Positions 10,921-16,617 of a DNA stretch of 32,186 nucleotides are shown piece after piece. The notes below the pieces were generated by a model. It made no database searches. It was not told where the DNA came from and saw only the letters and a list, made by a program, of their open reading frames with translations. Made by a program: the position numbers and the translations under genes. The stretch comes from Planctomycetota bacterium (GTDB taxonomy: Bacteria; Planctomycetota; Planctomycetia; Planctomycetales; Planctomycetaceae), in NCBI GenBank assembly GCA_003671275.1, contig QWPB01000068.1, positions 1 to 32,186 on the forward strand, given 5' to 3'. How positions within the stretch are numbered: position 1 is the stretch's first letter; every line of letters starts with the position of its first letter.

Positions 10921-11808
10921 ATGCGGATTCGGGATCTGTTCCAGTCCAAGCCATTTGTCATGTCGCTGGAGGTCTTTCCCCCCAAGACGGAAGCGGGTGA
11001 TGAAGGACTGTACCGGGCGCTGGAGCGACTCCGCCCCTACGATCCGGCGTTTGTCTCCTGCACGTATGGTGCGGGGGGCAGCACGCAAAATCGCACCGTG
11101 GATATCTGCCGCCGAATCCAGACCGAGTTCGCGTTGCCAGCCACCTCACATTTCACCTGCGTGGGGGCCACGCGGCTGGAACTGCTCGACTGGCTGTCTC
11201 GGGCCACGCAAAACGGGATTGCCAACATCATGGCCCTTCGCGGGGATCCGCCCCAGGGGCAGGCGGAGTTTCGGGCGGTTGAGGGCGGTCTGGCGAACGC
11301 CAACCAGTTGGTCTCACTCATCCGCGAGCATTACCCCAACATGGGAATTGGTGTCGCGGGTTACCCTGAAAAGCATCCCGAGGCTCCCAGCCTGGATGTC
11401 GACCTGCAGAACCTGAAACGCAAGGTCGATGCCGGAGCAGATGCCGTCTTCACTCAGCTGTTCTATGTGAATGAAAACTTCCTGCGGTTCCGGGACCGCT
11501 GCGGCGCGATGGGGATCGAGATTCCCATCGTTCCCGGAATTATGCCCATCACCGAATTCGCCCGGATCAAGCGAATCACCGCTCTCTGTGGAGCAGTCTT
11601 TCCCTCTTCGCTGGCCGCCCGACTGGAAGCGGTTCAGACCGATCCCCAGGCACAATTTGAAATTGGCGTCGAATTCGCAATCGAGCAGTGCCGCGAGCTT
11701 ATGACCGCAGGCGTTCCCGGGATGCATTTCTACGTTCTGAATAAAAGCGAATCGTGCGAACGCATTCTTGAAGGATTGGGATTGAAACCTGAGCCGGTCA
11801 CGGCATAG
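10921..11808 (+). CDS. metF: 5,10-methylenetetrahydrofolate reductase
   Basis: MetF is a cytoplasmic flavoprotein that reduces 5,10-methylene-THF to 5-methyl-THF, the methyl donor for methionine synthesis. It is 295 aa, the same size as bacterial MetF (about 296), and lacks the C-terminal regulatory domain of eukaryotic MTHFR. Key blocks are EVFPPK at 17-22 (E17 matches the catalytic glutamate), the [10 protein letters not shown] region at 46-55, ALRGDP at 105-110 with an FAD/folate-contacting aspartate, and GYPEKHPEA in the middle of the barrel. ATG 10921 gives the normal N-terminus. Its stop overlaps the convergent EF-hand gene by 11 bp. No other methionine genes lie nearby. Confidence 0.95.
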
Positions 11809-13369
11809 AGAGCTTGCTCACCTCGAACAGCGAAAGTACTCCATCGCGATTCTGGTCAAGTTCATCAAACTGATCCCGCGATCCGGGAAACTCACGCCAC
11901 GAAACCGACTTGTCGGTGTTGCGATCCATCCGCTGAAACCAGATGGGCCCCTGGCCAACCGGCACCCGGCGAAGGGCTTCCCCGTTCCGACGGCTCACCG
12001 GGCGCACAAGTTCCGCCGCGCGCGGACTCGCCAGACCCACCAGCAGTGACAACTGCCCCGGCAACTCATTGATCGCCAGCTGTCCATCCCCATCCCGATC
12101 CAGCCCCGCGATGTGCTGCGGGCTCTGAACGAGTTCCCAGGCCGAAAGACGACGATCACCGCTCTGATCCAGCACGTCAAACAGTGACTTGGATTCACGA
12201 TGCACGGTCCACTGCAACTGGCAGCGAGTTGCCAGATCATGCAGCTGGATCAAATGATCCAGTTCTTCTCGCGTAATCTGCCCATTCCCGTCTGTGTCAG
12301 CCAAAGCGGCCTCCGGGGCGAATTCGGCCTTCATCTCAGTCACGAGAGAGACAAACTCCAGAGCCGACAAGTAGTCATTGTCATCTCGATCAGCCGTCGC
12401 GAATTCCGTCGTCAGTTCGCGACGCTGAATCTGTTCCAGCAGTCCATGATTCTGAAACCGGACCTCGAATGAACTGCCACCCAGGTCGACGACATGGGTT
12501 CTCCGAGACGTTCGCGAAGCCGCCAATCCCTCCAGCCAGCGCACACCTTCGCGGCGCGAAACATAACTGACCAGCAACTGTGGATACGGCTCGCGGACGG
12601 ATACTGCGGTCAGTAACTCGTCCTCCGAGTAGAAACCGTTCTGGTCTCGATCGGCCACAGCCTGTACCCCCGATACTGCATTTCGTGGAACTCCCGATGC
12701 CTGACCATACCGCTGAACGATTTCTCGAACACCCATTGCCGTTTGATCAACATCGGACATCACCCAGAATGGGGCGGTCTTGAATTCCGCTGTAGCAGAC
12801 CGCCGGTCGGGCATCTGCAGTTCCGCCAGTTCGGAAGCCGAGATCGACTCATCGTTGTCAAAGTCGCAACGGAGCAGAGGTGTCGACGCACCTTGCAACT
12901 CCATGGGCGAGAGCATCCCATTACGATCAGAATCGACCAGTGAGAACAAAATCCCTGTCTGGCGCTGGGTACGGTCATCAACCGAAATCCGCATTGCCGG
13001 TCCGTACTTTGGGAACAGATAATTCCGCCACTCCGCTCCGGACAACTGACCATCACGGGGATCGACATCCGCTGTCTTCCAATCGCTCCCGACCATCTGC
13101 AACTGACGCAGTTCCGCAGACCAGACCGCCAGTCGACTGGCTTCGACGACGTCCAGATGACCATCCCGATTCTGGTCTCGGCTTGTGAACACGCGGCTTG
13201 CATATTCTTCCCGAGCAGCCCCGATGTGGTGTCCTTCCAGTTCCAGGGATACCCAGACCACGCGATCCGGTAGAAACACCAACAGGCTCGATGACGATTC
13301 AGCAGCCACGGAGAATGCGTGACTCCCGGTTCCGAGCAACAGGCCCAAGATCAATCCGCTGAACTTCAT
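11798..13369 (-). CDS. Secreted protein with ten EF-hand loops
   Basis: A 523-aa exported calcium-binding-type protein of unknown role. The ATG at 13369 starts a signal peptide (about residues 1-23, ending near FSVAAE); the longer frame to 13453 would bury it. Twelve-residue EF-hand loops start at about D65, D146, D169, D240, D327, D358, D401, D424, D482 and D505, each ending in Glu. A further loop near D101-E113 has one extra residue. Several loops keep the central glycine (such as those at 65, 358, 424 and 505), while others replace it, so not all need bind calcium. Regions between the loops carry no recognised enzyme motif. The gene starts 22 bp after the stop of the CPBP protease gene on the same strand, which suggests a two-gene operon. 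Proteins like this are common in Planctomycetes. Confidence 0.88.
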
Positions 13370-13391
13370 GGAATCTCCGGTGCACTCACTC

Positions 13392-14360
13392 TTACCGAGC
13401 CCCGGCACTCCAGACAAACGCTGCGGTATAACCCAGGAAGCTGCAGCCTTCATAGGCTCTTTGCCACTGTCGACAGAACGGCCCGGTCAACGTGGGCCCG
13501 TCTGAGTCATGATGTGTTCCCATCCGCCACGCCAGAGAGGTCAGGCAGGCAAACGCCGTCGCCAGCAGCACCGGACTGGTGGGCAACCCCTGATGCTGAA
13601 AATGAGCCAGTGTGACCACCAGCAGGTTATTCAGAAAATGCAGCAGGATCGGCACCCATAGCGTTCGGGTTTGAAGATAGACCCCGTGCAGGAACAACCC
13701 GATCGGCAAGGTCGCCAGCGCATGGGCGGGCGGCATGTGCATCAACCCAAATAACACGGTCGTGGCCAAGACCCCACCGACCGTACCCCAGCGGCGGACC
13801 ATTCCCTGACCGATCAGCCCTCGAAACACCAGTTCTTCCCCAAGCGCGGGGCCCAGAGCGATGGCCATCACCAGGATCGGATATGACACCCCCGTCGCCA
13901 GTGCCTGCACATGTTGATTGGTATCCACAGCCAACCCGAACCAGGCCTGACTCCACCGATACAACTCATTCGACAAAATCGCCAGCGGAACCACCGCTCC
14001 GGCGATCAGCAAGCCGTCCTGCCGCCGCATGGAGGTGAGTCCAATACGGAATCTCCATTCCGGCCCCAGTCGCCATCGGACCAGTGGAACCAGCACCAGA
14101 ACAGAGCCCAGCGTACTGGCGCCGATCACCAGAAAGCTGCGATCCAGTTCGATCGCCATAAACAGATCGAGCATCCGTTGCGGTGACAGGCTGCTGAGCC
14201 CCAGTGCGCTGAACGCAATCAGTGCCAGAACCAGACAGACTACGGCAAACTGGATGACGGCATACCCCGCTATCCAGAACAAAGCTTCTCCGGGCCCGAC
14301 ATCTCGCCAGCCGCCCGACTCAGACAGATTCGCAGTCTCGTTCGCTGTCTCTTCCGACAT
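13392..14360 (-). CDS. CPBP family intramembrane metalloprotease
   Basis: A polytopic membrane protein of the CAAX protease/bacteriocin-processing (Rce1/Abi) family. It is 322 aa with about eight hydrophobic segments from residue 27 on. The catalytic motifs are clear: EELVFR at 175-180, FGLMH with H208 and LLHFLNN with H241 and N244/N245. Bacterial members cleave within or next to membranes, but substrates are rarely known. An AAAGGTG ribosome site lies about 6 nt before the ATG, and a near-consensus promoter is found 48 bp upstream. It is the first gene of a likely operon with the EF-hand protein, so processing of an envelope protein is conceivable but unproven. Confidence 0.9.
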   Translation of the reverse strand: MSEETANETANLSESGGWRDVGPGEALFWIAGYAVIQFAVVCLVLALIAFSALGLSSLSPQRMLDLFMAIELDRSFLVIGASTLGSVLVLVPLVRWRLGPEWRFRIGLTSMRRQDGLLIAGAVVPLAILSNELYRWSQAWFGLAVDTNQHVQALATGVSYPILVMAIALGPALGEELVFRGLIGQGMVRRWGTVGGVLATTVLFGLMHMPPAHALATLPIGLFLHGVYLQTRTLWVPILLHFLNNLLVVTLAHFQHQGLPTSPVLLATAFACLTSLAWRMGTHHDSDGPTLTGPFCRQWQRAYEGCSFLGYTAAFVWSAGAR

Positions 14361-14582: not shown

Positions 14583-16016
14583 ATGACGGATCTACCGAAT
14601 CCTGCAGACCTCGTCTACTGCTTTGGCTGCAACGAACGATTTCTCAACTCTGATCTTCGTCAGGTCTGCCCTCGCTGCGGTCAGACAGCAGATGACAACC
14701 TGGTTCCGAGCGGTCCGACTTTCCTCTGGCGTAGTGCCGAAGCATGGGGGGCCCGACAGGCTCCTCCACCGGGTGATATTCGCGAGGCCCCCCTGGAACT
14801 TGTCGGGCAGACCATCGGGGATTACGAAATTTTGTCACTGCTGGGCCGCGGCGGGATGGGGTATGTGTTTCATGCACGCCATTTGCCGCTTGACCGCTAT
14901 TCGGCTCTCAAGGTTCTCTCGCCCCATTTGATCACACACGACCCGGACTATCTGGAACGCTTCGTGCATGAGGGCCAGGTAATGGCCGCCATCATGCACC
15001 CCAATATTGTATCGATCTACAACATCGACCGGATTGGTGACCTGCACTGCCTGGACATGGAGTACGTCCCCGGTCGTTCACTACAGCACCTGCTTCAAGA
15101 CCACCGATTGTCGATCGAACGAGCCCTGTTCCTGGCCAGTGAAATCGCCTGGGGCCTGTCGGAAGCCCATCGTGCTGGTATTCTGCATCGCGATCTGAAG
15201 CCGGACAATGTTTTGATGACACTGAACGGGATTCCCAAGATCGGGGACTTTGGCCTGGCCAAACGGCTGGAACACGGTCGCATTGAGCGTTTGCTCCCCG
15301 CCGGAACACCTCATTACATGGCTCCGGAGCTGTTCGAAGGCCACCCGCCCACAGCCGCCACGGACGTGTATTCTCTGGGAGTGTGCCTGTACCAGATGCT
15401 GGTCGGCAGAGTGCCGTTTCGGGAATCGGGCATGAATGCTCTAATCTCGGCAGTCACCACGACTCCCATCACGCCGCTGCGACTGTTGCGGCCTGACATA
15501 CCGCTCGACATTGCGGAAGTGGTCCATCAGATGCTGGAGAAGAGTCCCGCAAATCGTCCGCAATCCGGCGTGGAAGCCGCACAACTGCTCGATGCGGTGA
15601 TCGGGGGGATGCCTGACTTGCAGGCTCTGGTCGCCGAAGCGTTCGACCACGAACCGCACGTCCGCTGGAAACCCCAAGCGGGTGGCTTCGAATTTTATGT
15701 CCCCCTGCCCCATGGCCGGCATCAACAGGTTTGGATTGAGTCTTCAGGTACCGCCGCTCGCGAGAAGATTCTGCGAATCACCACACGCTGTTGCCCGGCG
15801 GATCCCCGGTACTTTGAAAAAGCCCTGCGGATCAACAATACGGTCGTTCACGGCGCGCTGATGATTCAGGACATCGATGGCGTCCCGTGGTTTCTGATGC
15901 AAAACTGCTATCCACGATTCACTGTCGATGCGGAAGAAGTCCGCCGTAGCGTCCTGGAAATCGCGTTTCACGGAGACGCCGTCGAACGCGAAATCACAGG
16001 CATCGACCACAATTGA
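14583..16016 (+). CDS. Ser/Thr protein kinase with N-terminal zinc ribbon and YbjN-like C-terminal domain
   Basis: A Hanks-type Ser/Thr kinase of 477 aa with no transmembrane segment, so cytoplasmic. The N-terminal ~35 residues form a zinc ribbon (C13/C16 and C29/C32). The kinase domain runs over about 81-340 with glycine loop GRGGMG (88-93), K110 in ALK, HRDLKPDN (202-209), DFG (222-224) and APE (247-249); it is complete and should be active. Residues about 357-472 form a separate alpha/beta domain with strands such as FEFYVPLP and GALMIQDIDGVPWFLM, followed by a D-x-E-E-V helix. This resembles the YbjN/type III chaperone-like fold; that call is inference. The ECF sigma factor gene starts 25 bp after its stop, so the two are almost certainly co-transcribed. 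The kinase probably receives a signal and acts on that sigma factor. Confidence 0.93.
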   Translation: MTDLPNPADLVYCFGCNERFLNSDLRQVCPRCGQTADDNLVPSGPTFLWRSAEAWGARQAPPPGDIREAPLELVGQTIGDYEILSLLGRGGMGYVFHARHLPLDRYSALKVLSPHLITHDPDYLERFVHEGQVMAAIMHPNIVSIYNIDRIGDLHCLDMEYVPGRSLQHLLQDHRLSIERALFLASEIAWGLSEAHRAGILHRDLKPDNVLMTLNGIPKIGDFGLAKRLEHGRIERLLPAGTPHYMAPELFEGHPPTAATDVYSLGVCLYQMLVGRVPFRESGMNALISAVTTTPITPLRLLRPDIPLDIAEVVHQMLEKSPANRPQSGVEAAQLLDAVIGGMPDLQALVAEAFDHEPHVRWKPQAGGFEFYVPLPHGRHQQVWIESSGTAAREKILRITTRCCPADPRYFEKALRINNTVVHGALMIQDIDGVPWFLMQNCYPRFTVDAEEVRRSVLEIAFHGDAVEREITGIDHN

Positions 16017-16041
16017 TGCCCCTGGCCTCCAGAAAACCCCA

Positions 16042-16617
16042 ATGAGCACCGACCCGTCCAGTACCGAACATGCGGTCTCTCGCATCCTGCATCGCCTGGC
16101 AGACGGGGAGGCCGGCGCGGCCTCGGAGTTGTTACCGCTGGTGTACGAAGAACTGCGTCGTCAGGCCGCCGCGCGGATGCGGCATGAAGCCGTCGATCAC
16201 ACGCTACAACCCACTGCCCTGGTTCACGAAGCGTACCTGCGACTGGTACGCGGACACCCCGAAGACTGGGACAACCGGAGACTCTTCTTCGGCGCGGCGG
16301 CGGAGGCCATGCGGCGTATCCTGATTGAACATGCCCGCAGCCGCGACCGGCTGAAACGTGGAGGTGACCGCCAGCAGGTCGTCGACTGCGATCCCCAGGA
16401 GATCGCGGGCCTCGACCCCGGGGAGATCCTGGCAATCAACGAAGCACTGGACTCGCTGGAACAGGAGATGCCCGATAAGGCCGAACTGGTCAAGCTACGC
16501 TATTTCGCGGGTCTCGACGAGATGGCCGCAGCCGAAGTCCTGGGGATCTCCCGGGCGACAGCCGCCCGCTGGTGGATGTTCGCTCGGGCGTGGCTGTTCG
16601 ATCGGCTGAAGTCGTAA
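16042..16617 (+). CDS. ECF sigma factor (PF07638/TIGR02999-type)
   Basis: An RNA polymerase sigma factor of the ECF group, 191 aa. Region 2 covers about 28-102 (ELLPLVYEELRRQAAARMR, then LQPTALVHEAYLRL and an RRILIEHAR helix). Region 4 covers about 130-188, with the helix-turn-helix around AAAEVLGISRATAARWW. The LQPTALVHEAYLRL and FFGAAAEAMRRILIEHAR blocks are hallmarks of the Sigma70_ECF family common in Planctomycetes and Acidobacteria. I chose ATG 16042 because it follows the kinase stop by 25 bp; a longer frame from 15928 overlaps the kinase. There is no anti-sigma factor gene beside it, so control by the adjacent kinase is likely, by analogy with known ECF-kinase pairs. Its target genes are unknown. 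Confidence 0.93.
   Translation: MSTDPSSTEHAVSRILHRLADGEAGAASELLPLVYEELRRQAAARMRHEAVDHTLQPTALVHEAYLRLVRGHPEDWDNRRLFFGAAAEAMRRILIEHARSRDRLKRGGDRQQVVDCDPQEIAGLDPGEILAINEALDSLEQEMPDKAELVKLRYFAGLDEMAAAEVLGISRATAARWWMFARAWLFDRLKS

Follow-up and report, generated by a model that had tools for sequence, protein, structure and literature searches.

The closest described relatives of the locus analysed here are the ECF43 sigma factors, known from the EcfP/PknT pair of Vibrio parahaemolyticus and the EcfK/PknS pair of Xanthomonas citri. In these sigma factors the DAED motif is replaced, a threonine within that motif is phosphorylated by the adjacent kinase, and phosphorylation restores contact with RNA polymerase (PMC13147305, PMC8999054). 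A second point of comparison is the fold shared by the class I type III secretion chaperones and the YbjN superfamily, including CesT, SycE, ExsC, YbjN, AmyR and DR1245. The solved proteins of the YbjN fold have been described as secretion-chaperone-like, and DR1245 is reported to partner DdrB, an SSB-like protein (PMC5398634, PMC3575483), and the superfamily, under the name "TY-chaperones", has been proposed to act as peptide-binding chaperones (PMC9503650). The Ser/Thr kinases of planctomycetes form a third; as far as the main text of PMC11032199 goes, it puts the weight on tails of the WD40 and TPR type and on the many kinases that span the membrane, and does not mention YbjN or zinc.

The window, by which we mean the whole stretch of 32,186 nucleotides analysed, encodes a sigma factor without DAED next to a Hanks-type kinase gene, as in the ECF43 pairs, and the kinase is a planctomycete protein with accessory domains, like those of PMC11032199 (Table 1). 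All catalytic motifs of the kinase are intact, comprising the glycine loop (GRGGMG, 88), the catalytic lysine (K110), HRDLKPDN (202), DFG (222) and APE (247). PknS is a membrane kinase, whereas the window kinase, which we refer to as the core kinase, has no membrane helix (the top 19-residue hydropathy is 1.09), and it carries a zinc ribbon and a domain of the chaperone fold. The sigma factor matches PF07638 with an E-value of 1.8e-54 and TIGR02999 (NCBIfam) with 195.5 bits against a cut-off of 126.15; its assignment is by these two models, and it is likened to ECF43 by its motif. The two genes lie on the same strand with a gap of 25 bp, and no anti-sigma gene is found between them or was recognised among the neighbouring genes read. 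The initial annotation of this DNA, which described a soluble zinc-ribbon kinase 25 bp from a sigma gene that has no anti-sigma gene, was correct on these points. A longer sigma open reading frame starting at 15928 was rejected: it overlaps the kinase, and the starts of the relatives correspond to the ATG at 16042. At about 0.65, the G+C content of the sigma gene exceeds the 0.57–0.60 of its surroundings, which include the kinase gene and most of the genes that follow.

Table 1. Features of the kinase–sigma locus in the window
Feature	Position	Strand	Remark
Long protein with repeated EF-hand-like DxDxDG motifs (by-eye reading)	11798..13453	-	Two genes upstream of the core kinase
CPBP (Rce1-like) membrane protease	13392..14360	-	Divergent neighbour upstream of the core kinase
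Hanks-type Ser/Thr kinase, soluble, 477 aa	14583..16016	+	Core gene of the family
Zinc ribbon, Cys13-x2-Cys16 ... Cys29-x2-Cys32	14619..14678	+	DZR match weak (E 0.071)
Kinase catalytic domain, residues 81–327	14823..15563	+	Pkinase (Pfam), E 2.3e-47
C-terminal domain, predicted class I secretion-chaperone/YbjN fold, residues 339–477	15597..16013	+	
Sigma factor, 191 aa, TIGR02999/PF07638	16042..16617	+	Apparently parted from its ancestral partner kinase (contig C179)
QPTA motif in sigma region 2.2, replacing DAED	16207..16218	+	Thr58, predicted phospho-acceptor

The C-terminal part of this kinase, which has been missed by domain libraries, has the secretion-chaperone fold by its structure model. 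An AlphaFold model built from an alignment of 39 relatives (pLDDT 89.3, pTM 0.83) has the order helix, four strands, helix, two strands, helix. When it was compared with the PDB by VIA-align, the top 36 entries were class I secretion chaperones, YbjN/AmyR and DR1245, with a few little-studied proteins among them, at Z scores of 9.4–13.5, and the score then dropped to 6.5 at the next unrelated fold. The match extends over the whole domain, both to ExsC (Z 13.5, 2.4 Å, 123 residues) and to YbjN 6vu7 (Z 10.2, 3.1 Å, 125 residues), at identities of 6–15% in the structural alignments. Sequence models register little of this: a Pfam scan of the C-terminal domain of the window kinase alone matched no family, the window protein is not recognised by the Pfam model of the YbjN family proper (PF10722), and a profile search of PDB sequences returned just chance matches to ribosomal protein L1. 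Among the 39 relatives, PF10722 was matched weakly by six (best E-value 2.2e-4), and TY-Chap1 and CesT_Tir_1 by one each. The model thus confirms the YbjN/secretion-chaperone resemblance proposed initially for residues 357–472, although the domain is slightly longer than those bounds. In contrast to the secretion chaperones and YbjN, the domain here forms one protein with a kinase, and relatives carry it fused to an SPFH domain or HEAT repeats; and unlike the type III secretion chaperones, the window kinase has no secretion-system link that we could see.

The core kinase is an old core gene, and none of the other zinc-ribbon orthologues examined has a sigma gene as its neighbour. Of 170 genomes of the order, 152 encode its C-terminal domain, as do 124 of the 130 good ones, in most as a single copy. 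An orthologue (L300) is also encoded by Thalassoglobus neptunius KOR42, a relative that is in culture. From more than 100 orthologous loci, 120 distinct kinases with the C-terminal domain were compared for ribbon and neighbours, and a script count found the four-cysteine pattern in 99. A three-domain kinase with a sigma gene within 1.5 kb occurs once among these 99, in the window itself; flanks of at least 800 bp on both sides were available for 79 of them, and the neighbour counts rest on our own ORF finder and a sigma profile made from few sequences. There is consequently no conserved zinc-ribbon kinase–sigma pair in the relatives, and the suggestion that the extra domains couple the kinase to the adjacent sigma factor is unsupported. 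The neighbours that do recur are different genes. A divergent CPBP protease gene similar to that of the window lies upstream in 37 of 104 loci, and a gene for a conserved secreted-looking protein directly downstream in 33 of 106, about a third (for example L061 8034–8870). The same-genus genome G154 (locus L047), where the core kinase C-terminal domain is 71% identical to that of the window, has the same CPBP gene upstream and a histidinol-phosphate aminotransferase-like (HisC-like) gene 3' of the kinase.

As the initial annotation had supposed, the sigma factor is of the phosphorylation-dependent type by its motif. Region 2.2 has no acidic DAED, and the third place of the four-residue motif is a threonine in the window (QPTA) as in ECF43 (STTA, QATE, consensus QTTA; PMC13147305, PMC8999054). 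Each of the 32 distinct sigma sequences that were scanned has QPTA, QATA, TATA or QPTM there. Since Thr58 falls on the proven phospho-site of ECF43, activation of the window sigma factor probably needs a kinase. The candidates are two: ancestry points to a kinase on another contig, C179, and adjacency to the core kinase, and on comparison of the sequences we hold the C179 kinase to be more likely.

The best relatives of the window sigma factor, in genomes G133, G013, G132, G131 and G126, are 65–68% identical to it. In G013 a kinase of 1130 aa lies upstream of the sigma gene on the same strand and ends 72 bp before it, and in G131 a large kinase is also found upstream, 1.2 kb off. The genome of the window encodes the orthologue of this large kinase on contig C179 (78% identity over 552 aa), and the C179 protein is 78–84% identical to the G013 and G131 kinases over the first 390–550 aa. 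The large sigma-linked kinases are about 1130–1205 aa long; unlike in the core kinase, no zinc ribbon or chaperone-fold domain was noticed in those of G013, G131 and C179. In the genome of the window, unlike in G013, the large kinase is not adjacent to the sigma gene: no sigma gene is present on contig C179, which ends 848 bp after the kinase. The link of sigma factor to large kinase is seen in G013 and G131 and appears broken in the genome of the window. An apparent separation of the two genes in G133 was dropped from consideration; one contig breaks off within the kinase gene, and the sigma gene is near the start of the other, so the two may be neighbours there. In G126 (L101 8434–10647) the sigma gene is intact and the kinase upstream has shrunk to a 147-aa remnant beside a transposase-like gene.

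The phylogenies of the two proteins agree. The window sigma factor groups with those of G013, G131, G126, G132 and G133 (99/98 support), and the C179 kinase groups with the kinases of G013 and G131 (100/100 support). Orthologues of the C179 kinase scoring above 700 bits are found in only four of 148 genomes, G000, G013, G131 and G133, all of the sigma clade, with the next best match at 470. The likelihood of such co-occurrence by chance is about 1e-6 by simple counting, which assumes that the genomes are independent, and this is not quite so. The agreement of the trees together with the co-occurrence indicates that the window sigma factor shares its history with the C179 kinase, which would be its ancestral partner. 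In this respect the window locus differs from the ECF43 pairs, as the kinase that adjoins the sigma factor does not appear to be its ancestral partner.

It is probable that the core kinase and sigma genes have histories of their own and came to lie side by side in the lineage of the window, and that the large C179 kinase, not the core kinase, is the activator of the sigma factor. The steps documented for this reading are the sigma-free conservation of the core kinase, its modelled chaperone fold, the motif change in the sigma factor, and the history that the sigma factor and C179 kinase appear to share. The core kinase would be a cytoplasmic enzyme whose C-terminal domain most likely forms dimers and binds a client protein or a peptide, which would bring kinase domains together or deliver a substrate, while the zinc ribbon probably aids partner binding. 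The sigma factor, lacking the acidic DAED contact to RNA polymerase and with threonine at the known phospho-site, would depend on phosphorylation, most likely still provided by the C179 kinase in trans. Given the gap of 25 bp, the sigma gene is probably co-transcribed with the core kinase gene, and through this its expression, as opposed to its activation, may have come under a new control. Counted against this reading are the gap and strand, which fit an operon, the end of contig C179 only 848 bp past the kinase, the sister clade described below, in which kinases with these two domains do adjoin a sigma gene, and the retention of the sigma factor in G132 and G126, genomes that yielded no intact large kinase. 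Even a neighbour confined to one lineage may have a function, and kinases may act across partnerships. Both the adjacency and the separation of the sigma gene from the C179 kinase come from one draft assembly, the adjacency from the single contig that is the whole window.

The adjacency does not exceed what is expected by chance, whereas the kinase and its C-terminal domain do. The genome of the window has 11 PF07638 genes, and by our estimate roughly 0.1–0.3% of genes would have one next downstream by chance, so a single kinase–sigma adjacency in about 58 genera is unsurprising. The sigma factor was not found in the same-genus genomes G154 and G155, but as those assemblies are just 66–71% complete, its absence there says little. 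A gap of 25 bp is no proof of a working pair. What the locus offers instead is a clean natural case of a sigma factor, apparently phosphorylation-dependent, that has left its kinase and now lies next to a different one, and it has brought to light a nearly universal family kinase with a predicted secretion-chaperone fold.

It is conceivable, though unlikely, that the sigma factor, after parting from the C179 kinase, exchanged one partner for another and is now phosphorylated on Thr58 by the core kinase, to which it would dock through either the zinc ribbon or the chaperone-fold domain. The short gap on the same strand, the need for phosphate implied by the motif, the position of the relatives' sigma gene downstream of its own kinase (72 bp in G013), and the divergent sigma factor of a sister clade of kinases that share the C-terminal domain would all be in keeping with such a swap. 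However, the arrangement is known from a single genome, which still has the old kinase at full length, and the 98 other zinc-ribbon orthologues have no sigma gene beside them, which argues that the domains did not evolve for sigma binding. It is very unlikely that two unrelated places were joined in assembly at the kinase–sigma junction; the genome is a single draft of 198 contigs and the G+C content is higher in the sigma gene, but both open reading frames are intact across the junction and the higher G+C equally fits an acquired gene. That the zinc-ribbon kinase and sigma factor were together from the start, as the title of the initial annotation suggests, with the sigma factor lost in most relatives, is extremely improbable, as the adjacency that speaks for it is in the window only, all other genera would have had to lose the sigma gene next to the kinase, none is present at the same-genus locus, and it is already contradicted by co-occurrence, by the neighbour count and by the trees, where the sigma tree agrees instead with that of the C179-type kinase.

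A true link of a kinase with the chaperone-fold domain to a sigma factor is found elsewhere, in the sister clade. It comprises nine kinases, mainly from one genus (g49), at loci L175, L194, L203, L206, L210, L214, L287, L289 and L297, which have the same kinase and C-terminal domains. Their zinc ribbon is replaced by an N-domain ("DARCDEFE...") that is also found on a sigma-linked kinase (C157) of the window genome. A divergent PF07638-type sigma gene lies within 300 bp of eight of the nine, and about 2.1 kb upstream of the ninth. These sigma factors retain DAED. Within this kinase family, linkage to a sigma gene therefore tracks the N-domain, not the zinc ribbon or the chaperone-fold domain. 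The sister clade adjoins a different sigma factor, so kinases of this kind have evidently been taken up into the control of sigma factors.

The chaperone-fold domain itself is a mobile planctomycete module. Of 393 genomes sampled across the phylum, 85 match its profile, and outside the family it comes after HEAT repeats, which Pfam confirms in L106, L107 and L113. What is new here is the presence of this module on a kinase, and likewise on HEAT-repeat and SPFH proteins, and its occurrence on the latter two makes its ligand a testable question. We offer only tentatively, and think doubtful, the broader notion that planctomycetes use it generally to sense peptide ligands or misfolded proteins, on the core kinase, on the HEAT-repeat proteins encoded near FloA and on the SPFH proteins alike. 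Together these would form a signalling network for envelope or protein quality that has not been described before, and sigma factors would have been drawn into it at least twice, in the window and in the sister clade. An SPFH/Band 7 protein encoded by L115 (6505–7905) ends in the chaperone-fold domain. Proteins with HEAT repeats and the chaperone fold are also encoded by L111 (6703–9205) and L112 (7072–9483), from two genera outside the family, and at both loci a FloA flotillin gene is found two genes away, with a small gene between (the Pfam match being that in L111).
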